Positions 15,275-63,290 of a stretch of 64,000 nt of DNA are shown here, piece after piece (the stretch's first letter is position 1; every line of letters starts with the position of its first letter). The DNA comes from Rhododendron vialii. Lineage: Eukaryota; Streptophyta; Magnoliopsida; Ericales; Ericaceae. Location: the NCBI RefSeq assembly GCF_030253575.1, contig NC_080557.1:40097001-40161000 (forward strand), written 5' to 3'. The position numbers and the translations under genes are program-made. The notes under the pieces are model-generated. The model had not been told where the DNA came from and made no database searches. It was given only the letters and a program-made list of their open reading frames with translations.

Positions 15275-15760
15275 TGTAGTGGGCTGGACTGTGGGTCAGC
15301 TTGCTGGGCCACTCGAAGGGCCCAAATCGGGGGAAAGCCTAATCAAACGCAACTGCCAACGCCCCGGGGCTTCGTGGGCGGGTCGAGGTGTTGAATCGGT
15401 TCTTGAAGGGTCGCATATGGATTGATCAAATTGCATTTGACATCGAGCTGTCCGATCACGGCACGTGGCGTCGCTTTTGGTCAGGTCATGTACTCCCCCG
15501 ATAGTGTGGCACTCGGCAATAATCATGGGTGAGCCCATACCAAATGGCAGTTATTTGTGACGTCACAACCGGCACGTGCTCGGCACAAGCTACCTTAGAG
15601 GTCAAGGCAAATAACTCACTATATAAGGTACAATGTTTAACCCTAAAAGAGATACACCGTCCTTATTCACTTATTAAAGCTTTGTATTTCCCTTCAATTG
15701 AGGCTTACTTAGCCATTAGAGTGTCTGTCGATCGGTCTATTTCGACCGACTAAGCACTAA
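15275..15760 (+). mobile_element. LTR-like fragment adjoining a LINE
   Basis: Begins tgtagtgggctggact, similar to the start of the solo LTR at 3818 (tgtagtggactgaac). It has a TATA box (tatataag, 15620-15627) about 345 bp in, followed by a transcription-start-like region. No matching 3' terminus or target duplication is found, because LINE coding sequence begins at about 15766. The fragment therefore appears truncated by, or joined to, the LINE. Confidence 0.6.
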
Positions 15761-15761
15761 C

Positions 15762-19192: not shown

Positions 19193-19839
19193 TCTTTTTC
19201 TTTTTCTTTTATCTCTCAAGTCATGTCTGACAAAATACACCTTATTAATCCACGCAAATTCACCAACATGCTCGAGCGATCAATCCAAGGGGATTACCTT
19301 GTTGTCAACGTGTGGAACTTAAGAGTTCGCTTTCTTTTAAATTTCAGGTTTGAAACCTCATAGGCGCGATATATTAACTTCTTGTAACTTTTCCTCGACT
19401 TTAATCAGAGACTCCGCTAGTAAACGATGGAATTGATCCTTCGAGAAATACTACTCGTCAACACGTTCGTGAGTTAGCCCAAACATCTTGATCGTGACTA
19501 TACATTTTACATTTGGTTCCCATATAATACATCCATGTAGAACTTAGTTGTCCAGATCACTTGTGGGCCTAAATGACGCAGGCAACGGTCCTAAAATTGT
19601 GCACGTTGCTCTGATTGAGGCCTAGCCTTTCTTGAGCCCAATAGCTGGGGACCAAGTTAAGAAAAGGTTTCGGCATGGGGTAGAATTGGGCCGTCCCTGG
19701 TGGCTCAAGAAATTAAAGTAAGGCATTGGGCTCATCAAGAGCACAAGTAGAATTTATAGAAAATTAATCTTAGGTTCATTATGTAAACTTTATAAGTTTC
19801 ACAAGTCCACCTATTAATTTTATAAAGTTTTAAGTCCAT

Positions 19840-20075
19840 TTTAGAGTACCTTAGGGTAGGATAGGGTACTCTAGGATTTAGGCACTTTCAAATTTTAGGG
19901 TGCACTTTTTTATTATAGGACAGGGTACCCCAGGATAGCGACTAGCGTAGGGTACCTTAGGGTTTAGGCACTTTTAAAGGGTTTTAGGGTGCACTTTTCT
20001 ATTATAGGGTTTTAGTGGTTTAGACACTTTTATAGGGTTTTAAGCACTTTCATAGGATACCCTAAGGTTTAGGTT
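19840..20075. repeat. Degenerate minisatellite-like repeats
   Basis: Several imperfect copies of agggtaccctagg, tttaggcactttta and gggttttagggtgcactttt occur in alternating order. They resemble telomere-like ccctaa/ttaggg words but are too degenerate to be an interstitial telomere array. Confidence 0.6.
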
Positions 20076-20362
20076 GTGTGGACTTGTAACTTTACAAAAC
20101 TATTAAGTCGACTTGTAGACTTATGAAATATTTATAGTGGATCTATCACTAAATCTCCCTAGAATTTAATTTCACTGCATTTTCCATTTCCATTCATCAC
20201 GAGATTCTAGATTCAAACATAGCATTAGCCTGTCTCAGAAACCTAGCATTAGCCATTAATCTGTATTATCATGCATAAAAATGAGCATTTACAAGCGTTC
20301 AATCGACCTGATTCTTTTTCCCTTTATAAATTCAGAACTCTTAACACAATTTAACTTGTTTG

Positions 20363-20576
20363 GGAGGTCAGGAGTTCGAGTTTCTCCATCTGCGTGTGAG
20401 TGTTTTTTCCTTAAAGGGCTTTTCCTACCTAATAATGGGCTTATTTCTTATATTAATTGAGTTGTTGGGCTTTGTTATCTCGTGGACTCTCACAATTGAT
20501 GTAGTGTCCCGGTTAATTTGTAATCTGTACTTCATATCTGATGTAAAATTATCTCTTCTATCAATTGAAAAAAAAA
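20363..20576 (+). mobile_element. SINE-like retroposon with 10-bp target duplications
   Basis: A 214-bp insertion flanked by aacttgtttg at 20353-20362 and 20577-20586. A box B-like ggagttcgagtttct lies close to its start and it ends in an A-tract. Box A is missing or very degenerate, so it may be 5'-truncated. Confidence 0.7.
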
Positions 20577-20586
20577 AACTTGTTTG

Positions 20587-21779
20587 ATTCATGACATGTC
20601 ATTTGTCATTACAAATGACATATGAATGCATTTGTTTGGCATGACATGAGCACGATGTTATTCGCATTAATTGGAAGTTATAGGGTACTCTCAAAAAACA
20701 TGGAATCGTCCCTCTAATCATCATGAACCAATTTTATTTCTTCACAATCTTCCGTCACTTTAGGAAATGTAATTGACCTGTTGCAGATTTTTTTTTTTTT
20801 AAACGAGGATGATTGGGTTAAACACCGAAAGGTCATTTCTAAGAGAAGGATATGCATGATAGTTAAGTGATTTATCGGTTCCTCACTCATGTGCTTGTGA
20901 TCCTCTCGAGGATTGAGCATGAACGTGAGAGGGATTGCCGTCGCAAAAAAATTCATCCCATTTCAAAACTAAATGAGCAATATTCAACCCCAACCCTTTT
21001 CAAAACTAAGTAATTAAAGGTTAACGATTAGAGGATAAAATGGAAAAATGAAGTGATAAGACATGTAACGACTGTATTTTCTTATTAAGTTAAAATCACC
21101 AAAAGAGACCAACAAATTTGGAAACGGAAGTAGTAGTTAGATGTGATTTGATACTCTAATGTCTATGGCAATAATCACCTGAAACACTCGCTATTTTCAA
21201 AGACAATTGACAAACACACAAAGATTCGATTATGAATCCTATCTCCCATCCCTACCCACCTCAAGCACAAATGCTCGATCCACAGCAGCTAACAAATCTA
21301 GTTGTTTCGTGGTTCAAAAATTGTCGAATCTTGTCTCAATCATCATTTTAACGTGACTCTTTGAAGTACGTTTATTAGCTTAATTGGACGAGACATTTAA
21401 TACACGTTATCCTTGGTCGTTATTCCTGGATTCATGGGAGAGTACCATTTTATAGGATGTTATTTGTCACTTATCACGTGCTATTAACAATTTAAGGAAA
21501 TTGATTTATACACTTTTCTAATTGATTCACACATTCTTTCTTTTTTTGTCTTTTAGCCCATGAATTTATAAAACAGTCCCTTAATTTTGTAAAAAGTGTA
21601 AGCATGCAGGAACTGTTTTGTAAATTCATCTGCTAAAAAAACGATGCTTTTATCAATTAAAGGAGTAGAAATCAATTTCCTTTTAACATTATATGAATGT
21701 GTAATCCACATGGTACAAAAAAAACACAAAACAAACAAACAACATAAAAGCCCAGAGAAAATAAGGCTTCTATTGTGGT
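20587..21779. other. Gene-free AT-rich interval
   Basis: No gene recognised. Small open frames on both strands (for example 20714-20956 and 21553-21792, minus) show no domain. Confidence 0.55.
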
Positions 21780-22131
21780 TAGGGGTGTGCACGGGTTGGA
21801 CGGGGTCGGGTTCGGCTCCGAATCCGACTCAACATGTCGGGTATCAATTTTTTTTTGCCTCAAACCGAACAAGTGAGAATAACCGTCCGCGTGCCCGATT
21901 TTTTTTTTTTGTCTGGTCGGGTCGGGTCCAACCAAAACCGATGTAAATCTATATGAATTTGTCGGTTTTGGTCGGGTCGGGTAAGAAAAACAGCACCCCG
22001 ATTCCCGAATCGAAAATTGATTTTTTACAAAAAAATTGAACCCGTACCTGACCAAACCACATGTTCGGCCCCGCCCGAGACCCTTCGGGTCGGGTCGGAT
22101 TTGTCGGATCACGGGTTTTTTGCACACCCTA
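21780..22131. mobile_element. Small hAT-like MITE with cgggtcgggt subterminal repeats
   Basis: Ends taggggtgtgcacgggtt and the inverted tgcacaccct-a. Flanks attgtggt (21772-21779) and attgtggc (22132-22139) agree in 7 of 8 bases, consistent with an 8-bp hAT target duplication that has mutated once. The interior is rich in tcgggtcgggt-type words, as in the element at 7230-8669. No coding capacity. Confidence 0.75.
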
Positions 22132-22348
22132 ATTGTGGCATTAATTAGGAAAATCCTTGGGGGTTAAGTAATTATAGGGCACCACCACCATCACTTTTTC
22201 TCTCACTAAAATGTCAGTGAAAATTTCGCAGCAACCGCCAATGTTTGTAAAATTACAAACACACTCTGCACCCCATCATCATCACATTAATCCGCATACA
22301 GTACACATGACTCCTATTTAACTTGTACGAGTATCACCACCCCACTCA

Positions 22349-22374
22349 CTCTCTCTCTCTCTCTCTCTCTCTCT
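22349..22374. repeat. (CT)13 microsatellite in the HIPP 5' leader region
   Basis: CT run 25 bp before the HIPP start codon, probably inside the 5'UTR. CT-rich leaders recur in this window (before the glycosyltransferase, dolichol kinase and ILP1 starts). Confidence 0.85.
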
Positions 22375-22398
22375 TGAATCCAACTCAGGGAATTCGTA

Positions 22399-24477
22399 AT
22401 GGGGAAGGTTCGTTCAAGCCTCGAAACTTGACCTAACTCTGAATTCATCTCTTCTCTCTCTGATTCTGTTTCTGTTTGTTGCTTTCTTATCACAGAAGAA
22501 GAACAAGAACGTAGTAATCGAGGGCAAGATCCAAGACGACCTCGAGCCACTGAAGAACGACGATAACAACAACGACGACGACGAGGGCAAAGGACAGAAG
22601 GACGGCGGCGCTATCAAAGTGGTTCTCAAGGTCGACATGCACTGCGAGGGCTGCGAAACCAAGATCAAGAAGTACGCGCGGTCCTTCAAAGGTTCGTTCT
22701 CCGCTCCGCATTTAACAGCTTCATTCCCAGATGCTCTGTTTCTTTGATTTTTTGCGGTGGTTTCCTTGTTACTGCTGTTCCGTGCGTTTCAATTTTTTGC
22801 ATTATCTTTTGATTTTTCTGGAATCGTTTGGTCAAATCGTTTAAACTTGTCGAGACTGATCATCTAGCGATTTCTCTGTGATGTTTTGAAGGTGTTGAAT
22901 GCGTGCAACGGAGCAATGACGGTTCGAACAAACTGACGGTGATCGGTGACGTGGATCCGAGGAAGCTCCGTGAGATGCTTGAGAAGAAGACGAAGAAGAA
23001 GGTCGACCTCGTCTCTCCACAGCCTAAGAAAGACAAGGACAAGGACGCCGGAGATAAGAAGAAGGACGGAGAAAATAAGCCGGAGTTCAAAGAGGTTGTA
23101 AAAGTTAAAAGAAAAATAAAATGAACACTCTTCCCTGCTAATGTGCGCGTCTGTGGCGTATTGCTTGCTTTTCTCTTTCCTCTGCAATCTGGATATTCTG
23201 GTTCTTTGTCTTTTTCCGCTGCGCATATAGTGCACGTCGTAGCAATCTTTGGCAAACAAACCGAATTGTCGTTCGATGCTCGGCTCGGCTCGTTATGCGC
23301 ACTCGGCTCGAGTGGTTTAGTTAATAAATGAGTCGAGTTCGAACTCGAATTTTAAGTTTGTTCAATAATTAGGCCGAGCTCAAGTTGTAACTCCGTTTGA
23401 TTATAAAAATTCGTCTCGTTTTTTAGAGGCTCGGCTCATTTATAAAGGCATGTGTAGTAACGAGCCGAACTCGAACACCTCAATAACAAAGGAGTCGAGC
23501 TTGAACAGCTCGATAACAAACGAGCCGAGATCGAACACGCCGGAGTGTGGGCGTATCATTTGGAGTCGCATTTTTGCAGCGCCCGTTCAGCGCTTGCTGT
23601 TTTTGGGAACTCTAAATTAAATTGATTCCCTATCATTGTTAGAAGATTTGATTATCGATTCATTCATTCACTCTGTGCTTGTAGCGCACGTTATACCAAA
23701 TCACGTGGAGGCGCATTTTAGCAGCCCCTGTTTAGTTTTGCTCTGCGTTGTGATTGTTTTTGGATACTCCGAATCCAAACCCACTTGATTCCTAATTACG
23801 TTACTAGCATTTGAATTACATTTTTCCAAAATTAATCTAATCTCCTTTCGGAGTTTTATTTGTCGGATTGTCAAGCTGATTAAGAAATATTGTTTTTCGT
23901 TTGTGTTTTTCTCAGATTCCGGTGACGACGGCGGTGATGAAGCTGAACCTGCATTGCGAAGGCTGCATCCAGAAGCTTTGCAAAGCGGTTGCAAAAACCA
24001 AAGGTGAGAGAGAATTTCATATCGTATCCCCTTCCTTTCCGTACAAACAGTTGAATAACGCCTTCTTTAATTACTACTGTACTGTATAATTTTCCATGTG
24101 ATTAACGGAGAGTAGTAAACGGCGTTACAGGATACCACGACATGTCGATTGACGAGCAGAAGAATCAGATAACGGTGAAAGGTGCGATAGACATGAAGGC
24201 ACTGGCCGAGTCGCTGAAGGTGAAGCTGAGGAAACCGGTGGAGATAGTCCCGCCGAAGAAGGAGAAGGACGGCGGCGGCGAGAAGAAGGAGAAAGGCGGC
24301 GGGGGCGAAAAGGGCGGTGGCCAGGGAGGGGAAATCCTGCAGTGGCCCCAGCACGTGCAGTACGGTTACCCGGATCCACAGTACGTGAACGGGTACGGGC
24401 CGGGTTATCCAGGCGAGCTATTTCATGCCCCGCAAATTTTCAGCGATGAGAACCCAAATGCCTGCTCCGTTATGTGA
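22399..24477 (+). CDS. Heavy metal-associated isoprenylated plant protein (HIPP), two HMA domains
   Basis: Metallochaperone-like protein, probably membrane-anchored through a prenyl group. Exons: 22399-22407, 22496-22691, 22892-23094, 23916-24003, 24131-24477; all GT-AG, phases consistent, 280 aa. HMA 1 carries MHCEGC (residues 51-56, M-x-C-x-x-C) and HMA 2 carries LHCEGC (148-153), both with intact metal-binding cysteines. A Lys/Asp-rich linker follows each HMA, then a Gly-rich and Tyr/Pro-rich tail (GYPDPQYVNGYGPGYPG), and the C-terminal CSVM is a CaaX farnesylation box. The first exon encodes only Met-Gly-Lys; this start was chosen because it gives an in-frame GT-AG junction and no other upstream Met fits. 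Length and layout match HIPP proteins with two HMAs. Metal specificity (Cu, Zn, Cd) cannot be told from sequence. Confidence 0.93.
23270..23545. repeat. Dispersed gctcggctcg-type repeat in HIPP intron 3
   Basis: The intron holds many cgagccgagctcgaac-like words in both orientations (for example ctcggctcggctcg near 23280 and gagccgagatcgaac near 23523). The same sequence type occurs at about 31935-32050. It is probably a degenerate transposon; borders were not found. Confidence 0.55.
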
Positions 24478-25184
24478 GGAAGGGAATCGGTGTGGGTGGA
24501 AATAGTAGTTTTGGACTAGAAGATGTAAATAAAATTGCGTACAGAGAGATATGGGGGATTTTTGGATAGGGATTTTTATGGTAAAGAACTAAGTTTTGTT
24601 AATTGGTTGAAGATCAATTAGAGGGATTTTGTCCCGAATTTTGATGATGTCTGTTAGTATTATGGTAGTGAGATTATGGCTGTGATTAAGCCAGGTACTA
24701 ATCTTGTTTCTAAAATTCATGCTTTGCCACTTTCCAATTCCTAGCATTTCTGTCTCGTGTTTTTCACACTTGGTATTTTTCAATTATATTCGTGTTTTTC
24801 GCAATTGCTATTTTTTTTTTTTTTTTGGAATTTTTGTGAGTATTTTTTAGCTTTGTTTGGAATTTTTGTGAGTATTTTTTAGCTTTGTTCTGCGTTTTCC
24901 TCAATAAGGCCATTGTTGCAAAAGACATTTGGACAGCCAAATTGAGTTTTGCTACTTGTAGAATCACTTTGATGTGAAGGTTGGGTCCCAATCACACACA
25001 CATACACGAGTGTCAAAAATGTTTTGAATTTTCGTTTGACCGAAAAAGAAAATAAATTTGTTTCGAGCCATGTGGACATTACTTGTATTGAATTCCTTGA
25101 ATTTGGTTCCCATGCATATATATGAATTGGCATGAATTAGCAATACTTGAATGTGAAAGGACATCTCCAAAGTTTTCCTTTGAA

Positions 25185-25275
25185 CTGGGTAGCCTAGTAG
25201 TAAAGAAATTGTTCTTTTTTTGTGTCCAATTCAAGGCTCAAATCCTCATTCAATACAATATGTGAAGTGCGAAAA
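25185..25275 (+). mobile_element. Degenerate SINE-like segment
   Basis: A box A-like gtagcctagtagtaaag (about 25188) and a box B-like aaggctcaaatcc (about 25241) have tRNA-like spacing, as in plant SINEs. No target duplication or clear tail was found. Confidence 0.4.
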
Positions 25276-25689
25276 TCCCAGTTGTGCATAGCGTGCCAAA
25301 TTCTTGCTTGTTTGTCAAAATTTTGAGACTTAAAATACTATAATAGCCTGTAACGTTTATGTTAGATATGATTTTCTAGCAACCTAAGAGGTTAGCTTGG
25401 TGATGACACCTGCAATTAATTAGGAGCTTCCTCCTTTGTAGATCTCAAGTTAAAAAGCTCATAGGTATTATGGGCCTTCCGCTGATAAAACGTGAGATTG
25501 GTTTTCTATATATTAGATGAGGTGCATCTAACTTGATCTAGACCCTAAGTTATCTAGAAGAAATGCAATTTCCCAACAGATAACCGCATAAAGGCATGAA
25601 AGAAATCACAGTTCTTCGAAGTTTGTGACCTAATCATATACTCAAGTTTGTATATCAAGCATGCCCCAAAGACAGAGGAGAATAACTCC

Positions 25690-25855
25690 AAGGGTTAGCT
25701 TAAGTGGCAATAACGATGAGCTGTAAACTCAGACATTCTAGGTTCAAAACTTGGCAACCTCGTGGTGCACCTGTGTAAGGTTGCCAAAGAGAAATCTATT
25801 GTGAATACCCAGTCGCGGTATGAATGGCTTACTTTTGATCAGACCGAGAAAAAAA
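25690..25855 (+). mobile_element. SINE-like retroposon
   Basis: Box A-like ggttagcttaagtggcaa (about 25693), box B-like ctaggttcaaaacttgg (about 25738), and an A-rich 3' end near 25848. Flanking aataac words (25681 and 25853) may be the remains of a short target duplication. Confidence 0.6.
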
Positions 25856-26183
25856 ATAACCGAGGTGCGTGTAAATTAGACTAAACATTCCTAATGGTCC
25901 AGCGAAAAAAAAAGAAGGTGAGAGACAGGAGAATGGTGGGGTGCAAATTTGTGACAGAGATCTCAGATGGTCTCAGTGTTGTTTGCTACTGTCCTTGCTG
26001 TTTGTCCTGCACTTCCCGGGGGTGCTGTTTGTCATTTTCTCTGTTAGGTTTTGGGGTAGAGGCATTAGCCGCATTACGCAAACGTTTTCGTTAGTGGAGC
26101 TTCGCCAGCTCACAACGGTACACCCGGCTTTATTCCCCAGCTTATTGTACCAAATTGCCCTCCTCTTTCAGTTCTATTTACAT

Positions 26184-26433
26184 TCTGTATTCACTTTGCA
26201 AGATTTCTGCTTTGTTTGATTTATGTGTTGTTTGATTTGTGCTTTGAGTAGTATTTTTGGATAATGAGTGGAGAGAGAAATAAGAATAATAATTAGAGAG
26301 AGACAAAAATTGGAGAGAGATAAAGTGAAAAATGAGAGTAATGATAGAAAAGTAAGAGAGAAAAATGAAAGTAATGATTGAGTTGAGAAATACTTTTTGA
26401 ATAGAGTAGTGAAGTGAACAATACAGAATTCAT
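26184..26433. mobile_element. MITE-like inverted repeat
   Basis: cattctgtattcactttg at the left and gtgaacaatacagaattc at the right are inverted copies separated by GA-rich DNA. Target duplication not resolved. Confidence 0.45.
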
Positions 26434-28125
26434 AATGCAAAGCAAAAAGAATGAACAATTCTTCCTGCTCGATTTTGGTTTGAGCTTCCCATTTTTCTGG
26501 GTTCTCTACCGTCTCACCTTATACTGACGTTGCCCCCGAACTCGATTTGGATCTCCTTAATAGAGCACAGGAGAGGCTCGCGTCTAGATGAAAGTGGTTT
26601 GGGTTCTTGCAAGATTGTGTTGAAATCCTTCTATAAGTGCCATCGAGTATCTTGAATGAATGATACCGATAAGGAAACAAATTTTTAAAAAGTGGGAACT
26701 ATTTTGTTCCCTCAATAATCATGGGGACCAAGGACTGGTAACGTTTTTAAAGATATTTGCTGCTATCAATAACAGAAAAATGAATTTCCGCTTGACCAAA
26801 AAAATAGATAGTAGAAAAAACTTGGCAATTTACTTCCCGAAAGTAGTTTCCGGAAAACTTATTCGAACAACCTAACTTTGGGAAACATCATTAGCTTCAA
26901 AACTAATCTTTTCAAATAAATGAGGAAGCAATTGATTTTACGAACTGTTTTTGTTTCAAATGCCAGAAAAATCAAGAATGAAATATAAAGACAATGTCAA
27001 AAACAAACCTATTTGCTTGACCAAAGATGATTACATTGTACGCATCTTTTCTGAGATTGGGAATTGTATGTATAGTGGAAAGTTACCTACTACCCTAAAA
27101 AGTTCTTTTTTATTTTTGAATAGCACTACCCTAAAAAGTAACCACAACCAAGCTCTATGTAGCCTGTAGGGTGCCAAAACCCTTTTCAATTTTTGGTGAA
27201 ACAGGCCACCAAGGCCTGCACACTTTTTTTTCCTGTCAAAAAAGGTATTTGCAGAGGGACAGAGTTGGAACGAAAAAATTGTTCGGCATTCTAATGATAC
27301 TTTGCTCCAGTGACTTTAACACTAAATGTGGCCATGTGGGTCATGGGTCGGACCTAAATATGACTTGGCCTTTACAGGAGTTGCACCTTGCTAATGCAAA
27401 TTGAAGTATTAAACCATGCACATTGCGGTGAAAGAGGACTGATACAGGAGCCTACCTTGCTTATGAAACAAGTTTCATCAACAAAATTCAAAGCACATAA
27501 ACACGTATTCAGATATGGAGAGAACGTCTTTGCATACATCCGTAAAAGTATGTTCCACGTGGTCTTGAATGGTAAAGCAATATAACCTAAAGTTCATCAA
27601 CTTTAGCATCCAGACCTCAGTTATTAAAGTTTGTGTAAAATGAAGAACGATACACACTTTGCATTTTCAACGAATTCCGACAACTGGGACAATTCAGATA
27701 CAAAGGTTTAAGGATCATCATACAAAGTTTGAAGATCATCAGCAGATTGAAAATTGTCGATTTCGCCCAGAGTCAATTTCCAATGTCGAAGTGAAAAAGG
27801 CTTGGTGCACAGATGTATGCTCCATACAGAAAGAGTTAGCCTCTAAAGACTTGGTAGAATAAACTCCCGGTTTATGCTGTGTTTGGACCATCATTTTCTA
27901 TTTTCAGGAGAAAAGAAAAGGTAAACGAAACGATAGAAAGACAATTAAGTGAAGAAGCTATATTATTTCTTTTGCTTACTAAATCAGGTGCACAAATGTA
28001 TGCTCCATATAGAAACTTACAATAACTTCAAAAAACAAAGCACGACATCAAAGGTCCCTTATTTGTCCAGGCTTTCTATCTCTATCATCAACAGAAAGAC
28101 AAAGAAGAATCTTCTAGATACATAA

Positions 28126-28512
28126 TCAAATATAGGGCCGTGAGGTACCGTGGTTGTCATCATCATTAAGAATGAGTTTGACTCCATTGTTCTTGAGAGA
28201 ATTTACGATGGCCCAAATCTTAGTCTTGTTCTTGAAACCTTTCTTCTCAACCTCTTCGTTAACATCAACATGGATACCCCTCCCCTGTCCATGCTCTAGA
28301 CCCTCCACCTTGAGCCGCATTGCCAATACATCTCCCACAACTGCCGCTGCCTTTGCATTGCAAGACCTACCACACTCCAACGTGCTCTTCAGGGAATGTT
28401 CCACTGTGGACGCTGTCGCGACAATCCGTCCATTGTTTCTGTCTACAACATTTGTTGTAATGTACTTCAGCGATATGAATAATCTTAGCACGTACCTCTT
28501 CAGAACTGTCAT
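28126..28512 (-). CDS. Ribosomal protein uL18 (L18p/L5e) family protein
   Basis: A 128-aa protein in one uninterrupted coding exon. The central part (LFISLKYITTNVVDR, then ATASTVEHSLKSTLECG, KAAAVVGDVLAMRLKVEG and VWAIV/IWAIVNSLKNNGVKLIL) has the uL18 fold pattern: a strand pair, a helix with AAxxVGxxLAxR, then a second helix ending in G-V-K-L. Plants have several short L18p/L5e-family proteins of this kind, some organellar; this one has no obvious N-terminal transit peptide in the frame shown. An acceptor-like ttccag lies 9 bases before the ATG on the coding strand, so the 5'UTR is probably spliced to a distant exon. Role in the ribosome is inferred from the family only. Confidence 0.82.
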   Translation of the reverse strand: MTVLKRYVLRLFISLKYITTNVVDRNNGRIVATASTVEHSLKSTLECGRSCNAKAAAVVGDVLAMRLKVEGLEHGQGRGIHVDVNEEVEKKGFKNKTKIWAIVNSLKNNGVKLILNDDDNHGTSRPYI

Positions 28513-28599
28513 GTTATGGACCTGGAATGCTCTCTTTCACAATGGAAAGTAACCAGATATGAAAGTGAGAGGGTTGCAAAAAGCAAGATAAGACAATAA

Positions 28600-31170
28600 A
28601 GTTAAAAACTTGAAACATTTTTTTTTTATAAATAATTTCAGTTATCTAAAGCTGCAAAGAGAACAAGTGGTGTTTAATTTAACTACTTTATTTGACATAC
28701 AAACAAAATCGGGAATATACCAAATTGTGGTAAGTTGCACCGAAACAATTAAATATTTAAATCTATTTATAACTCCTCCCAGAAATGACAAACACAATTA
28801 ATATAGCCGAGGTCTAAAGGGAGTGGGACTCAAATGAGAATACTGAAAATGCTACAAAAAGTTAATTTCAAATCAAAGCCTGAAATGGACAGTGATTTGA
28901 AATTTCAAAGAAAAATGGCTACCAGGCTATGCAATTTAATTTGCTACCCTGATTGTAACAGCAGCACCGTAGTTATCCCAGAAACCCCTTCTCTATAGTA
29001 GATGAAAGAAGGTAAGAGCAAAATATTTGAATTTCATTTCTGAAAGGCCACGCAAATGATTAGAACATAGAAACTGATTCGATGAATACTGGACAGGAGC
29101 CAGATCACATATCTAGCAAAAATTGTACTTAAAGTCTGCAACACAGTTTAGCATAGTGAAGCTTCAAGTGAAAAGATGGAACAAGTCGTATTTATTCCCT
29201 TCCCGTCTTGCTAATTTTGTTGAAAGTGTGAGTTGGAATCATTACCACATACTGACCACAAACATATTTGAAAGCATGCCAATTGTCAAACAAGCACTTT
29301 CCATTTTAATGACAAATCTTAACATTAAAGTATAATTGGAGTCCACTGAGCTAATTGTTCAAGTCTTCAAGATGACTTTTTCTTATTGTACACTGAAATT
29401 ATAAAGCAGCTTTTCTGTCATAACTATTTCTGTACCTGTGAGTAAACTAAACAGCTTGAATAGGCTTTTACGGTCTACACTTGGAGTAACCTGGATTATG
29501 ACACTTAACATAGATGACCAATAGGTAGGAGAAGGGGTAGTGTTAATTTGTGTTGATTGCACACATATTGGGGGTGCAAAGTGATTGTTTGAGGGTTGTG
29601 ACTTGTAAAGTTGTGAGTACTAACCCAAAAATAGTATTTGACTGATTCACTCGTAAATAAGAAAGAACAAAAAAAAAAAAAAAAAGGCCAAAGAGGAGAG
29701 AAGTGCTTCACTCATATTCACAGATATTCAGTCCCAAAATATTCACAGATATTCAGTCCCAAAATGTCATTATTAACCACTTTCGAACAATACCGGCGTG
29801 GGTGTTCAGATGCTAGAGGAGAATACTATGGATCCCAACAATCTAGACCTGCCAAAAACCACATATTTGACACGAAATCATAACTTCGTCTAAATTAAAC
29901 AACAAAGAGCTATGTTCATGAAATCACAAAATTACCATAACACCGATAACACTTACCTAGTAAATTAGAATTCATAATAGCAATCCATCAACTCATAAAA
30001 ACATGAATTGAAAAAGAAACATAATCACGAAATCATGATTTCATCTTGCCCTAGGTTTGCTACATTAAAACTTCCTGGTTCTCCAACTTTTTCCTTCTTT
30101 CCATGATAGTCATCACCTCCCTTAAGAATTATAATTGGGAAGTATAATATAATTACATGAATCAGAAATTCATTGAGCCATGAGAGAAACAAGAGACAAG
30201 GAGAGGACCACCCTCTACGACTAGGGAGACAAATTCAATAACAAATTAAGAGTGACTTAGAAAGCAGTGATAACACGAAAATAACTAGATGGAGTCACGA
30301 ATAGAGTAAATACTAGCTCCACTCTAAGCTCTTGGCCAAACAAGGCATTAAAGAATATCTTATATAGATTTATTGACACGGTATATTTATCTTCCCTAGA
30401 CCATTTAATGAGTGGATTAGCACGAGAAAACCAAAAAGCATCCCAATCTACATATTATGGCAGCAGCTTCCAGAATGATATACTCTTAGAACCAATGACA
30501 ACTATAAAACGTCCCGTGTCAGAAAGAGATACATTCAAGTCGGATAGCCCTTGAAACTCGTACTCATCTAGACATTTCATGTTTCTCTTACTTTGGAAAA
30601 ATGAGAACCCGCACTTCGGATACTTGACGGAATCACATGTCAATTGTTAAGAGATACTTGAAACACCTCGCAAGTTATAGCAAATTAACCAGCGAAATTT
30701 GATTAAAATTTAAATCCAACCAATGTGAAATTGTCCATATAAATCTCTCCTCCTTTAGGTTTCTAATCTTACGCTTACAGTACCAAAGCCCAAAACTTTT
30801 ATTTCCTTCCCAACCTGATCATTCGATAATAGATAACCGACCTTTTCGTTTAATATTTTAGCCTACAGTGTGTGCAAACATCATTTCCTTAGTCTTTTGA
30901 AACAAAGAATTAACGCATTGGCAGGAAATTGGATTTCTCCACCAAATAACTTAAGCTTTTCACACGTAATCAACATATATCAGGCTCGGGCCGTCTGCAT
31001 GTCCTGGACTAGCGACTCTTATCTATTCCTTCAATCAGTTTTGGGTACGGGAAATTGGCATGCATACTTCTTAAGTACCCATCAAAAAACTAGAAAATTA
31101 TGTAAAAATATACATCAGTGTATATGAAGGTTTATCATAAAGTATGAAAATAGAAACCAGAGCAAAGAAA
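28600..31170. other. Probable long 5' intron or intergenic DNA upstream of the uL18 gene
   Basis: No coding sequence recognised. It is AT-rich, with a short duplication (atattcacagatattcagtcccaaaat, 29714-29765). If the leader exon near 31180 is real, this stretch is a 5'UTR intron of about 2.6 kb. Confidence 0.4.
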
Positions 31171-38400: not shown

Positions 38401-40565
38401 TTATTTATTGCATTTTTCTTTCCAGACGCTATGGTTTGCTTGGATTGAACGGGTGTGGAAAATCTACCCTTCTTACTGCAATTGGTTGTCGCGAGCTTCC
38501 TATTCCTGAACACATGGATACTTATCACCTCTCTAAGGAGATTGAGGCTTCCGACATGTCTTCACTTGAGGCTGTCATAAGCTGCGATGAGGAGAGGCTG
38601 AGGTTGGAGAAAGAAGCTGAAGCATTGGCAGGACAGGTGTGTCTAAGTGGTTAATGAACATTGTGCTTTAATTTGTTATGGTCAGGAATTTAATTGCAGA
38701 CTGTGTATTGCTTGGGTGGCTTTAGGAGGATGGTGGTGGAGAAACTCTTGAACGCATTTATGAGCGTTTGGAAGCCCTTGACGCGTCAACTGCAGAGAAG
38801 CGTGCTGCTGAGATCTTGTATGGTCTTGGGTTTAACAAGAAGATGCAAGAGAAGAAAACACGCGACTTTTCTGGTGGCTGGAGAATGAGAATTGCTTTAG
38901 CACGGGCTCTGTTTATTAACCCAACCATCCTGTTGCTCGATGAACCTACCAATCATCTTGGTAAGTGCCAATTGCTCTAAAGCTGCCCATGGTGGTTAAA
39001 ATTTGGTTGCCTGCCTTCATGTTTTTTCAATATTTGGACTCTCTTAATGTTCTGAAGTTAAATAACGTGTTTTTTAATATAATTTTCCCTCTTTTTGCAA
39101 ACAACTTTCATAGAAATACTAATTACTAATTTACTATGATTATATATATGGTGGCATGGTGGAACCTTGTTTTAGTAGTTTGTAAGCTATTGCAGCACTT
39201 TCAATGGCCTTAGAGTTGCCAAATAATGTTGTTTTGCATTCGGACATTCAAAAAGTTGTTTTGCACTGTTGCTGTGGTACCGCGCAAATTTGGCTAGTTG
39301 TTTAGAGATGAATCAAAAAACGACATGTTCATAGATTTTTATTTAGTTTTACCTTCAGGTCAAGATTTGCCCAATCCAAGTATCGATTTTCCTGTTTGTT
39401 CTGTAGTAGTTGGTGATTGATATTCCGAAAATTCCCTGGTCTATTGGTTATAAACTGACTGATTAGCACGAATGTGATGTTGATGAGACACCGTTTTCTG
39501 ATGACAGATTTGGAAGCTTGTGTGTGGTTGGAGGAAACTTTAAAGAAATTTGAGCGCATTTTGGTCGTGGTTTCCCACTCCCAGGACTTCTTGAATGGTG
39601 TTTGTACTAACATCATCCACATGCAAAGCAAGAAACTGAAGCTTTACACAGGGAACTATGACCAATACGTTCAAACCCGATCTGAGTTGGAAGAAAACCA
39701 AATGAAACAATACAGATGGGAACAAGAGCAAATCGCTTCGATGAAAGAGTACATCGCCCGGTTCGGACATGGATCTGCCAAACTAGCCCGTCAGGCCCAG
39801 AGTAAGGAAAAAACCCTGGCAAAAATGGAGCGTGGCGGGCTCACAGAGAAGGTGGCGAGAGATAAGATTTTGGTCTTCCGATTTACCGACGTGGGAAAGC
39901 TTCCCCCTCCTGTGCTTCAATTCGTGGAGGTAACATTTGGTTATACACCCGATAACCTCCTCTACAAGAATCTCGATTTCGGGGTGGATTTGGACTCCAG
40001 AGTGGCTCTTGTAGGGCCCAATGGAGCTGGGAAGAGCACATTGCTGAAGCTGATGACGGGGGATTTGGTCCCACTTGATGGCATGGTCCGGCGGCACAAC
40101 CACCTGAGGATTGCACAGTTCCATCAGCATTTAGCTGAGAAACTTGATCTCGAATTGTCTGCTCTCCAGTTTATGATGAAAGAGTATCCTGGAAACGAGG
40201 AAGAGAAGATGAGGGCAGCGATTGGGAAGTTTGGGCTCACAGGTAAAGCCCAGGTGATGCCCATGAAGAATTTGTCTGACGGGCAGAGGAGCAGGGTGAT
40301 TTTCGCGTGGTTGGCATGGAGACAGCCCCACATGCTTTTGTTGGATGAACCTACAAACCATTTGGATATCGAGACGATAGACTCGCTGGCCGAGGCTTTG
40401 AACGAATGGGATGGGGGAATGGTTCTTGTTAGTCACGATTTCAGGCTCATTAACCAGGTGGCGCAGGAGATTTGGGTGTGTGAGAATCAAACAGTGACCC
40501 GATGGGAGGGTGATATTATGGACTTTAAGGAACACCTGAGAAGTAGGGCTGGTCTTTCTGATTGA
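35264..40565 (+). CDS. ABCF1: ABC transporter F family member 1 (GCN20-type ABC-F ATPase)
   Basis: Soluble ATPase without membrane segments. ABC-F proteins act on ribosomes, and the plant GCN20-like members are tied to GCN1/GCN2 control of translation. Exons: 35264-35476, 38252-38325, 38426-38636, 38726-38960, 39508-40565; all GT-AG with matching phases, 596 aa, the usual length. An Ala/Lys-rich N terminus (about 1-45) is followed by ABC domain 1: Walker [10 protein letters not shown] (102-110), signature FSGGWR (214-219), Walker B LLLDEP (235-240). A charged linker (about 300-360) leads to ABC domain 2: Walker [10 protein letters not shown] (414-422), signature LSDGQ (500-504), Walker [12 protein letters not shown] (about 521-531). 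All ATP-binding motifs are intact. The protein is nearly identical in wording to Arabidopsis ABCF1. Confidence 0.97.
35477..38251 (+). other. ABCF1 intron 1 contents
   Basis: A 2.8-kb first intron, by far the longest in the gene. Near 35745-36180 it holds phrases typical of degenerate plant hAT-like insertions (gcccaggcgacctccccacg at the left, cccaccaacggtaaaatcct at the right). Nothing coding is recognised. Confidence 0.4.
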
Positions 40566-53599: not shown

Positions 53600-56275
53600 A
53601 TGGAGGAAACGCACCAAAAACCGCATGCAATCTTCATACCCTACCCTCTCCAAGGCCACGTTATCCCATCCGTTCACCTGGCAATCAAGCTAGCATCAAG
53701 AGGCTTCACCATCACATTCATCAACACCCACTTCATCCACCGCCAAATCACCGCATCCTCCTCGGCCGCCGACATCTTCGCCACCGTCCGCGACTCCGGC
53801 CTCGACATCCGCTACGCCACCATGAGCGATGGCCTGCCGGTGGAGTTCGACCGGTCGCTCAACCACGACCAGTTCATGGCCGCCCTTCTGCACGTGTTCT
53901 CGGCCCACGCGGAGGCTGCGGTAGCGGAGGTAGTGAGGTCGGGGACGACGCCGGCGCCGAGTTGCTTGATCGCGGATACGTTCTATGTTTGGCCGTCGAA
54001 GGTGGCGAAGAAGTTTGGTTTGAAGTATGTGTCTTATTGGACGGAGCCTGCATTGGTTTTTACTCTCTATTATCATATGGGCCTTCTGAGGCTAAATGGC
54101 CACTTTGGTTGTCTTGGTAAGCACGCTCCCTCTCTCTCCAACCTCCCTCCTACGCTAATCGCTAGGTAGCAAATAAGAAAATGCGAACAGTGCTACAGAT
54201 ACAGATGTATTTGAAGTCATTTGACTCGTGGATGTACATGATGCACGCGAAGTTCACACGATGCACATGTAATCTATGCGTGTCAAAATCGTCCGAACCT
54301 TTGCGTCTCAATCACTTCTCTGGGGCAAAGTGGTTTCATGTAGAATTGAGAATAATTCTCCAACTTTTCAGGAAATTTTCCAAGTCCTTTACTTTAGTCT
54401 GTTACCTTTTCATTTAGGAAAAGGCTACGCACATGAACATGCATATCTCAAATTTGCGGACAGCCTAAATATCAGGCGAGCCCATGCTCGTTTCTTTTGA
54501 GACTCTATCTGTACTCGTAATGTGGTACTCTTTTTTGTAATTTTTATTGAATTTCCGTTTGACCGGAAAAAAAACTCAAATTTGCAAAGAAAAATAAATA
54601 AATAAAGAGATGTTGTAGTGTTTCTTCAATTTGATAATCAGGTGTCCGAGACAGTTTACGTGCATCTTAACTAATCCTGGAGGACCATAACCCACCGTCT
54701 ACTAGCCGGTGCCTGAGTTAAAACCGGAGCAAAATGCTCCCTATTCACTTTAATCAAATAAAAATAAGAATGAAACTTCACGTACTTGCCGATCAAAAAA
54801 AAAACTTCACGTACTATATGTAAAAGGTAGCTGGCACCACCAAAAAATTGTGTATAAAATTCTGCTTGTATACTTTCTCTGTCTCAATTTATATATCCAA
54901 TTTGGGAAATACAACTTATTGAGGTGACATAATAATTACACTTTAAAAACTTGAAATTTCAAAAAAAAATTCAATTCAAATTCCAATTGTCGTTCAAATC
55001 AGGATACAAGGGTAAAAATATATTTTCATGCGACTTTATCATTAGACATCTCAAAACGGAATAACAATTCGGTTTCTTAAAAGTAAAAAAGTTGACAAAC
55101 AATATGAAACAAGGGAGTAACATATTAGCTATTAACGATCTCAAAAATGTCTTTTGAAAGGCGATCCACCTATTTAATATTTATCGTTGGTCACTTTAAT
55201 AATTGGTCTCATACGTAACTAGTTTCGTGTGTCTCTTCTTCCAATTTACAATCGCACTTAAATATTTCAATGCACCATGGGATCTTGCACTAACGTTATA
55301 CATCCATTTTTCTCATGATCAGAAGCCAGAGAGGACGCCATAGATTACATACCGGGGGTCCAATCCATCAATCCAACGGACACGACATCGTACCTCCAGG
55401 AATCAGACGGTTCATCGGTGTGCCACCAGATCAATTCCAAGGCATTCGAAGACGTCAAGGGTGCAGATTTCGTTCTGTGCAACACAGTACAAGAGCTCGA
55501 GCTCGACACCATATCAGCTTTAAAGACAAAAATGCCCTTCTACTCAATAGGCCCGATTTTCCCGACCGGGTTCACCAAAAGCCTCGTGCCCACGAGCCTG
55601 TGGTCCGAGTCGGACTGCACCCAGTGGCTCGACACCAAGCCTCGTGGCTCTGTTTTGTACGTCTCCTTTGGCAGTTATGCCCATGTCACACACAATGATC
55701 TAGTAGAAATAGCAACCGGGCTTTTGCTCAGCGGAGTGAGTTTTGTTTGGGTGCTTCGCGCGGATATCGTGAGCTCCGAGGACCCCGATCCTCTGCCCGA
55801 GGGATTCAGGGAGGAACTCGGCGACCGTTCGATGATCATACCTTGGTGCTGCCAGATACAAGTCCTGGCACATTCGTCCATAGGGGGGTTCTTGACCCAT
55901 TGCGGATGGAACTCGGTACTGGAGAGCATGTGGTGCGAGGTTCCAATGCTGTGTTTTCCCCTGTATACCGATCAATTCACGAACCGAAAATTGGTGGTTG
56001 ATGATTGGAAGATTGGGATTAACCTTTGCGATAAGAAGCGGATCATGAGGGCGGAAGTTTCGCAAAAGGTTGGCCGTCTGATGAGCGACAAAACCGGAGA
56101 TAAGTATAGGAGTGCGATCAAGGATGTGAAAAAGGGATTGGAAAATGCATTGAGACCCGATGGATCATCCGAAATGAATCTTGATCAGTTCATCAAAGAT
56201 CTGAAGTTCAGCATCCAGAAGAAGAGTGGGGGCACATTGGATCAAAACAAAGACCGGTTATCTAATGGAACTTAA
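53600..56275 (+). CDS. UGT86A1: UDP-glycosyltransferase, UGT86A type
   Basis: Family 1 UGT that transfers a sugar, probably glucose, to a small molecule in the cytosol. Two exons, 53600-54116 and 55323-56275 (GT-AG), 489 aa. The catalytic pair is present: His20 in PLQGHVIP and Asp126 in CLIADTFYVWPS. The PSPG box spans residues 347-390 (starts WCCQIQ, ends PLYTDQ), 44 residues long, with HCGWNS and a final Gln, which favours UDP-glucose. The opening 'WCCQ' instead of 'WAPQ' and the phrase YVWPSKVAKKFGLKYVSYWTEPA match UGT86A proteins. The single intron position also fits. The acceptor substrate is unknown. A (TC)27 run sits in the 5'UTR. Confidence 0.93.
54873..55117. mobile_element. Degenerate Stowaway MITE in the UGT intron
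   Basis: Flanked by TA (54871-54872 and 55118-55119). The end ctttctctgtctcaattt pairs imperfectly with the right end gaaacaagggag. Size (245 bp) matches the two other Stowaways here. Confidence 0.6.
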
Positions 56276-56998: not shown

Positions 56999-57531
56999 GT
57001 AATTTGCTCAACTTAATCTTCATGGAGTTGTAAAAAAGTTGCTTGGGAAAACCTCGGATTCACAGAATTTGCGTCCGAAATTCGTAGAGTATGTTTCTTT
57101 CATACTTTCGATCCGATTTCTTTGATTTTTTAGCTACTCGTGTAAAAAGAAAGAGCAAGAGAACAACATAATTTTCCAAAGTTAATTGAACCTCAAAAAA
57201 AACGCAGAAAATTAATTGAACCTCCAGTAGTCAGGTAGTTCTTTCACTTACCTTGCATTTTCATTTCATTCACCGATAAAAATCAACGCATAGCAAACTG
57301 TAATTTGTTTGGGCAGTGGTGAAGCCAATTTTTTTTTTTTTTGAAAATCCTTGCAATTTTCAAATCTGAGGTCGATAATTAATTGATAATTTTAATGACG
57401 TATAACGATAAATGACATACAACCGTGTGCATAAGTTAGTGATCATGATCAAAATGTTTTGGAGAATAGAAACACGATTAACGAAAACCAATAGTATATG
57501 TTAGGTCAACTAATAGTTTGTTTGGTACGTA

Positions 57532-57867
57532 CAGGGCCGGCCCAAGATATTTGAATGTCCAAGGCTAAATGATAAAATAGTGCCTTACATAAATTTTCTA
57601 ATTTAAAAATAATAAACAGAAATATTTATCTATATAGGAGTATCATTTTCATTCATACTATTCAATATGGTAAATATTTCGACTACCAGGATTTGAACCT
57701 AGGCATCTTATATGTGGAAGAGCAAATACTTTACCACTGAACCAACCAAAGGAGTTTGTATTATAGTTGGGCACAGAAAATATATATGAAGAGGTGTCCC
57801 ATTTTTTGCCCAAAATGTGGGGGCCTAAGACGGCGGTCTCTTGGGCCTTGCCATTGGGCTGGTTTTG
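57532..57867. mobile_element. hAT-like MITE containing a tRNA-like segment
   Basis: Begins cagggccggccca and ends tgggctggttttg (inverted, 9 of 13 matching). It is flanked by an exact 8-bp duplication ggtacgta (57524-57531 and 57868-57875). On the minus strand, about 57675-57752 reads ggttcagtggtaaag ... ctaggttcaaatcctgg, a tRNA-like box A and box B pair. No protein coding. Confidence 0.82.
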
Positions 57868-58107
57868 GGTACGTATCAAAGATGGAGCTAAGAGGTCTAG
57901 TGACGACGGCCATCACGACAAGAATTTTAGAAAATGCATTTATTACATGTAAAAAAAATTATCTCTAACTTGTATAGACTTGTTACCACTAGATTTTTTA
58001 GTATATTTTTTGCTATATATACTAGTCCCTAATCCTTTAATTTTTCTCAAGAAAGGATACCCAAAAAAAGTATTCCCAAACTAAATTTAATGGGCCAAAG
58101 TAAAATA

Positions 58108-58343
58108 CTCCCTCCGTCTGGATTTAATTATCTCTAGTTCTATTCTAACCGGCTAAAAAATGGGTTATATCTTTGAATCCGTAATGAATTTCATATCGAA
58201 TATAGATATTGTTTAATAGATCTCGATTAATTATATAATACAATGTTTTCGAAATCACGTAAAACATTATAAATTGGAAGATATAATCGATTGAAAAATG
58301 ACACAAACTCCAAAAAATGACTATTAAATCCAGACGAAGGGAG
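58108..58343. mobile_element. Stowaway (Tc1/mariner) MITE
   Basis: Flanked by TA (58106-58107 and 58344-58345). Ends ctccctccgtctggatttaa and the inverse of ttaaatccagacgaagggag match almost perfectly. It lies about 470 bp upstream of the ILP1 start. Confidence 0.92.
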
Positions 58344-58720
58344 TAATGATCTAGGAGAGTTTTCATATTTTATTTCTATTACTTTATAATAAGATTTTTA
58401 CGAGGAATATTTTCGTTTAGGTTAAAATTATTAATTTTCGTATTCGATTTGATTTTAATTTCTTACTTTATTAGAAATTTTGTTCTACAAGAATTAAAAT
58501 TTTATTTTAATTAATTAAAAATTAACTCTTCTTTAATACAGCCTGACATGATTTAAAATTTTCTTTTTCGGTAGAATTTTTAGGATTTTATTATTACCTT
58601 ATAAAAGGGATTGTAAATTAATATTTTATACAACTACTTCGTCAATAATTTTCTCTCTCATTTTTCTCATTTTCTCTACGCGCAAGGTTGCTCGTGAATT
58701 CGAGTGTAGTACGCAAGCTT

Positions 58721-58722
<2 letters not shown>

Positions 58723-58752
<30 letters not shown>
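58723..58752. repeat. (TC)15 microsatellite in the ILP1 leader
   Basis: Ends 60 bp before the ILP1 ATG, followed by a (CCGCCA)-rich stretch. Confidence 0.92.
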
Positions 58753-58755
<3 letters not shown>

Positions 58756-58812
58756 TCACCGCTGCCCCCGCCACCGCCACCCCCGCCACCGCCACCGCCC
58801 CAGCCCCAGCCC

Positions 58813-61800
58813 ATGAGCATCAGAACCAAAAACTTCCGCCGCCGTGTCGACGATGACGATGACGATGACACTCCCAATGGGACTGTTCCCCCCTCTACCT
58901 GCTCCACCAGAAGCCCCCACCACCAAGCCCCCAAAAAACTTCTCAGCTTCGCTCAAGACGACGACGAAGACGACTCCTGCTCTTCTCGCCTCAACAAGAT
59001 CAAACCCTCCCCTTCCCATATCCACACGTCTTCCAATGTCCGCCCTCCCCCTCCCCCTCCCCCCTCCAACGTCCAACCCCTCTCCGGCACCTACACCCCC
59101 GAAGCCCTCCTCGAACTCTGTAAAAACACCAAAACCCTACTCCCCTCCTCCCACCACCGCCTTCCCCCCTCCGAACTCGTCATCCTCTTAAAAGGTCTCG
59201 TCAAGCCAGTTTCCGAAACCCTAAAACAAGACGACGAATCGGACCACGACGACGACCGAGAAGAAGAAGCAACCACGGCCCAATTGGCCGGGATAGGGCT
59301 GGGGAAATCGTTCCCGGATCAAGCGACGATAAACGCGATCCGAGCCAGGAGGGAGCGGCAGCCGCAGTCGCGGGCTGTCTCACCGGATTTTATATCCTTG
59401 GACGGGGGGAGTAATCAAGGGGAGGCGGAGGGATTGAGCGACGAGGAGCCCGAGTTTCTTGGGAGGATAGGGTTTTTCGGGGATAAAATCGAGAAGAAGG
59501 GTGTATTTGATAATCATGATGGTGTTGGTGAAAGTGTTGTGGCTATGGAGGGTGTTGGGTTTAGGAAGGAAGTCGTTGATGAGGAAGAGGAAGAGGAGGA
59601 GGATAAGATTTGGGAGGAAGAGCAGTTTAGGAAAGGGTTAGGGAAGAGAATGGATGAGGCTTCATCTAGCGGTGGTAGGGTGGTAGGGACTAATAGTAAT
59701 AGTGTGGCTTTGCCAGTTGTAGCTCAGAGCATTATTCCGCAACAAAAGTACGCATACGCTCCCGCAGTAGCTTCGTATCCTTCGGTCCCGAGCATAGCAT
59801 TGGAGGAGCGGTCGATGGATTGCCAGGATTAGAAGTGATGTCAATACCGCAGCAGGCTGAGCTTGCTAAGAAAGCTTTGCACGACAACCTGAAGAGGATG
59901 AAGGTACGCCTTGGAAATTTCACTTCTTTGACATACTTAATAGTTCTATGGAATGGTATGAGGTGTTGATGCCGTTGTTATGCGAAATTAAGTATATAAA
60001 GTCGAAGTCATGAAGGGAAAAGAACAAGAAATTGCATTCAGGGTTTGTTTTTCTGCATCATATTTGTATGCTAGAAAACTGACTTTGCAACCTGGAAATG
60101 GTATCCGGTCGTTCTTATGTTAAGTCAATTTGTTGATTTGGATTGTACAACCCATCACTACCACAAAGCATAATTTAGGTGGTATTGTGGTTAACTTAGT
60201 GTGGTGTGCCCTATGCTCATACCAATATTCAACACCTTCATACAAAATGGTTCTTGTTGAACAACTTAATGGTATGCGTAGAAGTAGTTTTCAATGTTTC
60301 TTCTGATCTACGTTTCTATGAAGTGCATGTGATGCAGATGATGCAGATGAAAGGTCATTTTCAATAGTGTTCCCTTTCGCAGAAAACATGGATATAGGCA
60401 CCCTTTTGTTTCTTCATTGGCAGGAATATCATATGATTTTCTTATCCATATTCATCTCCATGTAAAAATGGATGTGGCATCATGAAATTCAATTGGCCGA
60501 ATGTGAACTCATTAGAGACGTTGAGCACTCATCATAACCAAGGAAAGGAACTTTGTGATGATTGATACTAACTTGTATGTGGGACATTTGGTGAATCTGA
60601 AGTTATAAAATTCCGCACCAGCCTCAGTAATGACTTACATGTTAACACTCTGAAATGCTAATTTAACCTTCCAAAAAATTATATAGACACCCTTCTCATA
60701 TTGTTTTGAGGTTCTCATAGTCATAGCTATCTGTAGGTGGTCTGTGGGCGGCAGGCCTATGGTCAATATATAGTATGTGGTTTCAGAGGATACTTACAAA
60801 GTCTTCGTCGAACAGCCTGATTGAACTCCTTTAGTGGGGACAGCATATAAAAGGTCTCCCTCAATCAAGAGAAAGTATTTAGATTGCCAATTACCAAGTG
60901 TTATCAAATTTGTTCCCCATACATTCCCCGTTCGTTCCTCAATAATTTTTCCTTAGTACCATAAACTTTGTCCACCTCTTTTTTAGTTTAGTTCATTCAG
61001 CAACCTTTTGCTGTTCTTGATAAAAACAGTGTTCTAAATGGCGGCCGCCGAGGCCGCCTAGGCGCTTGGAGGTACCCTGCCGCCACACCAATACCCCTTG
61101 GCGTTTGATTTGGCGCCCAGGGAGGTTTGGCGGCCGCCTAGGCGGCCTTGGCGGGCCTTGGCGGCATCATCGACGTCTTTGGAGGCCTTTGGCGGCCTAA
61201 AATGTATAGTATTAAACTAATGTAGATCAAGTTTTGGAAGGGTATGAAGGAGAAGAGTTAAAGAAAGAAGATGAACTTTTAACTTGGCATTAGGGATCTC
61301 CGATCTCGTTTATTTCTACTTATTGTCTTATTCAACTTATTTGCTAGTTGCTACTACTTAATTTCATTTGGGTTTGTACATTAAACTTTGCATTATGGTT
61401 ATGTAGAACTTTGAACTTGTATTATGGATGCATAGAATATAATTTGATTGGATAATGGTTGGTTAAAAAAAAAAAAAACGCCGAATTGCTTGGCGGCGCC
61501 TAGGCAGCTTGGCGCTTGGAGGTGGGTCTCCCCCCTACTAGCGCCAAGCGTCATTTAGAACATTGGATAAAAATTGTTTGATCATCTCGTTTGTATGCCA
61601 AGTTCTTTTATAGCTATTCTTATAACAGCTGTTTTCGTTCCTATTTTATCTGTCCACATGACCTCTTCTGGATTACTTCTTATTTATCTCATGTCTTTGC
61701 ATCATTAGACAATTTGTGGTGGTACACAGAAATGTATTGCATGAATTTAATTAACTGATGCCAGTGTTTTTCATGTTTATCTGTCTCCTTATCAGGAATC

Positions 61801-61963
61801 CCATGGCAGAACCATGGCATCATTGGTTAGGAATGATAAGAACTTGACCACCTCGCTGTTGAAAGTCACTGCTCTTGAGAAATCTCTATCTGCTACTGGT
61901 GAGATGTTCATCTTTATGCAAAAGCTTCGTCACTTAGTTTCTGTTATATGTGACTTTTTGCAG
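58813..61963 (+). CDS. ILP1: ILP1 / GCFC-domain splicing factor, 5' part, with frameshift in exon 1
   Basis: Nuclear protein of the GCFC (PAXBP1) family; Arabidopsis ILP1 works with NTR1 in spliceosome disassembly and affects endoreduplication. Exon 1 is 58813-59903 and exon 2 is 61796-61963; the rest lies beyond the window. N terminus: basic KNFRRR, Asp-run, Pro-run, then LSGTYTPEALLELCKNTKTL, VSPDFISLDGG, SDEEPEF and EEDKIWEEEQFRKGLGKRMDE, all ILP1 landmarks. After PSVPSI (about 59795) the original frame runs into a stop at 59830, while the ILP1-like continuation (DGLPGLEVMS, QQAELAKKALHDNLKRMK) is in another frame. The cause is agcatagcat at 59791-59800: one agcat unit too many. Exon 1 is 1,091 bp; without five bases it is 362 codons and joins exon 2 (ESHGRTMASL...VICDFLQ) in phase. 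As given, the product stops at 339 aa, before the GCFC domain. Confidence 0.9.
61027..61565. mobile_element. hAT-like MITE in ILP1 intron 1
   Basis: Ends cagtgttctaaatggcggcc and the inverse of cgtcatttagaacattg, flanked by an exact 8-bp duplication gataaaaa (61019-61026 and 61566-61573). Both subterminal regions are very GC-rich with ggcggccgcctaggcgg-type words, in contrast to the AT-rich centre. Confidence 0.88.
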
Positions 61964-63059: not shown

Positions 63060-63290
63060 AATCACATTGGCGTCTGTCCCAAAGTTGCCCCAGGGGTAAG
63101 GGTGGATTTGCGCCTCCAACGTGGCAGGGTTCGATTCCTCGTGGGGGCATTCGGGATTTAAGTGAGGGGCCGTGGCGGTGGGTTGCTGCGCTAGTTCCCC
63201 GTAGGTTTACATGGCATGGGTGGGTCCAATGTGGCCCTACCATGGGGTGGTTCCTACGTCATCAAAATAATAATAATAAATAAATAAATG
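63060..63290 (+). mobile_element. SINE-like retroposon in ILP1 intron 2
   Basis: Box A-like gttgccccaggggtaaggg (about 63083) and box B gggttcgattcc (about 63128) at tRNA-like spacing. The body is GC-rich and the end is a (ATAA)n run (about 63266-63288). Target duplications were not resolved. Confidence 0.65.

Follow-up and report, generated by a model that had tools for sequence, protein, structure and literature searches.

A probable duplicated ILP1 pseudogene with a frame-breaking 5-bp repeat in Rhododendron vialii

Plant ILP1 works together with NTR1 in the intron-lariat spliceosome, according to PMC9871932. The Arabidopsis ilp1 T-DNA mutants described there are plants with lower heat tolerance, the passages on these mutants giving no null status for the allele; being plants with reduced heat tolerance, they indicate that loss of the factor need not be lethal. 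The ILP1/GCFC family also comprises the animal proteins PAXBP1 and GCFC2. Among the matches listed in a literature search, no paper deals with both ILP1 and Rhododendron. In the genome of Rhododendron vialii, a gene located on contig C3 shares its NTR2 and GCFC domains with this family and can be aligned to both PAXBP1 and GCFC2. In contrast to the working members of the family, a second copy, located on contig NC_080557.1 (C1), has exons 1, 2, 4 and 5 only and two frame breaks, as expected of a relic. It resembles duplicated (non-processed) pseudogenes in having a parent-like gene, introns, frameshifts, lost exons and a transposon insertion, and when compared with that class no unusual feature was found in it.

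The window that we analyzed is the 64-kb stretch C1:40097001-40161000, within an assembly of 532,647,506 bases in 13 contigs. We refer to its ILP1 duplicate as the C1 copy and to the second locus of the same genome as the C3 copy; positions given without a contig are those of the window. The gene name ILP1 (INCREASED LEVEL OF POLYPLOIDY1) is taken over from an earlier note on this DNA and agrees with the NTR2 and GCFC domains; for the C1 and C3 genes the name is presumptive, the domains being what was tested. A haplotype A assembly of R. vialii (2n = 26) has been obtained from HiFi and Hi-C reads (PMC10338486). A 50-base repeat printed in that article is called probably centromeric by its authors; it occurs in the genome in 5,867 exact copies (4,756 forward and 1,111 reverse, the reversed control yielding 0). 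Other open reading frames of the window encode domains of a reverse-transcriptase retroelement (15720-17867; RVT_3, zf-RVT), of an ABC-type ATPase (39459-40565; ABC_tran, ABC_tran_Xtn) and, in part, of a UDP-glycosyltransferase (55319-56275).

Exon 1 of the C1 copy extends on the forward strand from the ATG at 58813 to 59903, followed by a GT donor at 59904. The earlier note had claimed that two adjacent AGCAT units, located between 59786 and 59835, break its reading frame, and that this frame stops at 59830. Both units are present, at 59791-59795 and 59796-59800 (forward strand), the C3 copy having a single one. The stop-to-stop frame that contains the ATG at 58813 spans 58552-59832 (426 aa) and ends in a premature TAG at 59830-59832 (forward strand), which is reached once the frame has changed. 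When the C3 exon 1 protein was used as tblastn query, its residues 1-362 matched frame 1 of the window at 58813-59796 and its residues 361-396 matched frame 3 at 59796-59903; the continuation of ILP1 in another frame, which had also been claimed, hence appears as a jump from frame 1 to frame 3 at 59796. The exon is 1,091 bp long, that is, two bases beyond 363 codons and not a multiple of three, and its frame is broken; the arithmetic of the earlier note, by which removal of one unit leaves 1,086 bp or 362 codons, is right (1,086 + 5 = 1,091). A tandem 5-mer as such is unremarkable in this DNA: perfect ones with more than two different letters start at 104 positions of the 64-kb window, overlapping registers included. 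AGCAT AGCAT is nevertheless the sole tandem 5-mer of C1 exon 1, and C3 exon 1 has none. A small missed intron that would excise the duplication was considered and rejected, as the C3 exon, with its one unit, runs straight through that place. The 339-residue reading of 58813-59829 scores 28.8 bits for the NTR2 domain (cutoff 27). A Pfam search with the 66-aa piece in the downstream frame gave no domain, and a PDB search with the window exon 1 reading alone gave no match at E up to 10. Repeat-rich sequence accounts for much of the first half of exon 1.

Genome-wide, window positions 59600-59900 match two loci, namely themselves and C3:32948083-32948378, the latter with 95% identity and being 5 bp shorter. 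The second ILP1 locus that the earlier note had suggested looking for was thus found, and it has a single AGCAT at the equivalent place, where the frame reads straight through. Its gene model, for which open frames and splice signals alone were used, consists of six exons with GT-AG introns (C3:32947194-32948381, 32949670-32949837, 32951769-32952448, 32953386-32953665, 32954108-32954397 and 32955279-32955471) and encodes 932 residues in one frame, open from start to stop. The protein contains GCFC (7.4e-31) and NTR2 (1e-6) domains. It aligns with PAXBP1 (8ro2; E 4.9e-59, query 175-499 and 535-930) and with GCFC2 (9s2e; E 2e-32), these being its nearest solved relatives and two of the three distinct solved sequences obtained at E up to 1. 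With an open frame, a GCFC domain and similarity to PAXBP1 and GCFC2, the C3 copy has the features of an ILP1/GCFC gene, and ILP1 function is presumably supplied by it. Just after its stop codon, at C3:32955478-32955531, the last 18 residues of exon 6 are repeated in part. Exon 1 of ILP1 is represented a third time by a fragment of about 260 bp at C8:18459715-18459974, in which an internal stretch is missing.

A tblastn search of C1 at E up to 0.1 detected exons 1, 2, 4 and 5, the first and the last of which have a frame break. Exon 2 (61796..61963, forward strand; 168 bp) is open and its protein is 89% identical to that of C3 exon 2. In exon 5, a 2-bp insertion relative to C3, at about C1:40163556, shifts the frame, so that neither exon 1, with its TAG at 59830-59832, nor exon 5 allows an open frame through all exons. 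Exons 1, 2, 4 and 5 all keep their donor GT. In the same tblastn search (E up to 0.1), which extended to 43 kb beyond the window, no match to exons 3 and 6 was obtained on C1. At a relaxed limit of E 10, applied to 20 kb of C1, the best exon 3 match had an E of 0.40 and lay on the opposite strand and those of exon 6 had E of 4.5 and 8.6; these weak matches were taken as chance. C3 exon 3 has one match genome-wide in a DNA search, on C3; exon 6, in a protein search, has one full match, on C3, in addition to the partial repeat behind the C3 stop codon; exon 5 has two, on C1 and C3. These genome-wide counts cover exons 3, 5 and 6 and refer to the best candidates scored, so that a very diverged copy could escape them. 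In place of the rest of intron 2 and of exon 3, the C1 copy has about 2.1 kb that match nothing in C3 (62596..64000 in the window and on to about 64722, forward strand). This DNA includes an element of about 190 bp (about 63084-63270), which we take to be a tRNA-derived SINE; it has at least 40 matches besides its own, obtained by scoring the best 40 of 107 candidates. The GCFC domain of the C1 copy is incomplete: against a cutoff of 28.1 bits, the piece from exon 4 scores 33.7 and that from exon 5 21.9, and no C1 sequence was found for the exon 3 part.

Introns 1 to 5 of both copies align at least in part and occupy the same places. As they align collinearly, the gene must have been copied as DNA; a retrocopy origin of the C1 copy was rejected for the same reason, its introns being present and aligned with those of C3. 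Intron divergence, gaps left out, is 5-9%, and collinear blocks of exons and introns show 84-92% identity, gaps counted. Intron 1 of the C1 copy (59904..61795, forward strand) aligns to C3 intron 1 in pieces (59904-60522, the short 60999-61026, and 61566-61795). Between the last two lies a MITE of 539 bp (61027..61565, forward strand) with similar inverted ends (CA.TGTTCTAAATG) and, on either side, the 8-bp target site duplication GATAAAAA (61019-61026 and 61566-61573); its features are, we presume, hAT-like. C3 intron 1 has the insertion site of this MITE and lacks the element. Just 5′ of the C1 copy there is a second MITE (58102..58346, no strand assigned), with CTCCCTCCGT ends and presumably Stowaway-like. 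The C3 gene has a 90.6% identical copy of it in its third intron, whose corresponding place in C1 lacks the element.

The 5′ match between the two genes stops at 58737, 76 bp before the ATG and within a CT-rich run. From there, 57514-58736 has no long collinear match to C3, and 57351..57513 (forward strand) is 81% identical to DNA that precedes the C3 start codon by about 0.6-0.8 kb. Further upstream, scattered pieces within 19201..28617 (19201-19488, 20754-21307 and 28289-28617, forward strand) match, in order, DNA further upstream of the C3 gene. For 20935-21307, the sole other full-length match genome-wide is that upstream of the C3 gene (81%), at least 13 further matches being all partial. 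The piece 28289-28617 has a C3 match of 92%, but there is a full and closer copy on contig C5 (95%) and an incomplete one on C13, so that this piece could have spread independently. When identity is computed alike for all, with gaps counted, three of the upstream pieces have 82-84% and one 92%, most gene pieces having 88-92%. The order of the upstream matches suggests that the copied segment was probably at least 12 kb long and was later split by insertions, the upstream part being the weaker claim.

We compared the two copies over 588 codons. Ks is 0.097 and Ka 0.046, with a Ka/Ks of 0.48 (bootstrap 0.32-0.71), a value that would fit one constrained and one unconstrained copy and does not prove it. 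By exon, and with small counts, Ka/Ks is 0.37 (exon 1), 0.87 (exon 2), 2.15 (exon 4) and 0.25 (exon 5); taken alone, the values of exons 1 and 5 would also fit two constrained copies. No stop due to substitution occurs in the compared codons, 1.2 being expected under neutrality. As zero stops were obtained in 28% of the runs in which 49 neutral changes were simulated, their lack is uninformative. Indels were counted in the aligned C1/C3 pieces, four gaps at exon-intron edges (65372 twice, 65648 and 65650) having been left out by hand. Twelve of 14 coding indels are divisible by three, against 4 of 23 in introns (Fisher P = 8e-5). Since most coding indels are multiples of three, one of the copies at least must have been under coding constraint; this pairwise comparison does not polarise the indels, and the C1 copy may have been coding during part of its life.

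Taken together, we consider it very likely that the C1 copy is a duplicated (non-processed) ILP1 pseudogene, which arose by segmental duplication at the DNA level and was then pseudogenised. A DNA segment with the gene and its introns was copied between what are today parts of C3 and C1, as the collinear introns and exons show, and decay of the C1 copy came after duplication. In the course of that decay, the 5-bp AGCAT duplication, probably a product of replication slippage, shifted exon 1 into an early stop and a 2-bp insertion put exon 5 out of frame; unrelated DNA took the place of the exon 3 stretch, exon 6 is missing from C1, the proximal 5′ flank ceased to match that of C3 and a MITE entered intron 1, the C3 copy retaining the open frame. 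The C1 copy combines a similar parent gene in the same genome and retained introns with several independent disabling lesions, namely the 5-bp and 2-bp frameshifts and the lack of exon 3 and of exon 6. Among the options of the earlier note, that of a decayed paralogue is borne out by the open-frame locus on C3 and by the further lesions on C1, and the AGCAT duplication is most likely one among several lesions of an ordinary pseudogene. Judged from its sequence, the C1 copy appears to have lost function. We counted against a pseudogene the lack of substitution stops, the frame-keeping indels, the exon-wise Ka/Ks values and the kept donor GTs.

Some of these observations would instead suit transcription of the C1 copy, with a role either for a truncated N-terminal ILP1 piece or for an RNA that regulates the C3 gene: exons 1 and 2 closely resemble those of C3 and their donor sites are kept, the 339-residue N-terminal reading scores for NTR2 (28.8 bits, cutoff 27), and most coding indels keep the frame. 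A stop in an exon upstream of introns usually exposes the transcript to nonsense-mediated decay, and the exon 1 stop at 59830 is placed in this way; moreover, the proximal 5′ flank differs from that of C3. We hold such a role to be very improbable. The narrower proposal, that exon 1-2 RNA of the relic or its 339-residue NTR2 fragment regulates the intact C3 ILP1 gene, would be slightly less probable still.

That the AGCAT repeat stems from an error in assembly or base calling, within an otherwise decayed copy, appears as improbable as transcription with a function. Short tandem units can be miscounted, but a 5-bp unit that is not a homopolymer is not a typical long-read error. If the sequence is that of the R. 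vialii HiFi assembly, the single-base error rate given by the authors of PMC10338486 is about 0.00021%, which is not an indel rate. As the C1 copy is also broken elsewhere, by the exon 5 frameshift and the missing exons 3 and 6, such an error would not make it whole and the conclusion of a pseudogene is independent of it. That the lesion represents a genuine allele, null or hypomorphic, of the only ILP1 gene of the plant, an option in the earlier note consistent with a frame break that is real in the assembly and with the conservation of the family, can practically be dismissed, since the sole complete gene found is that on C3, full-length and open from start to stop, and the C1 copy also lacks exons 3 and 6.

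A duplicated pseudogene at this place leaves the knowledge of ILP1 itself unchanged and bears on annotation: automatic gene calling at the C1 locus could yield a chimeric or truncated "ILP1-like" model, and the C1 copy could mislead into thinking that the plant has no ILP1. If the relic did regulate the C3 gene, it would represent a natural dosage control of spliceosome disassembly. The pair also provides a clean example of one gene copied with its introns and receiving later MITE insertions on each side, which postdate the copying because the matching site of the other copy has no element.
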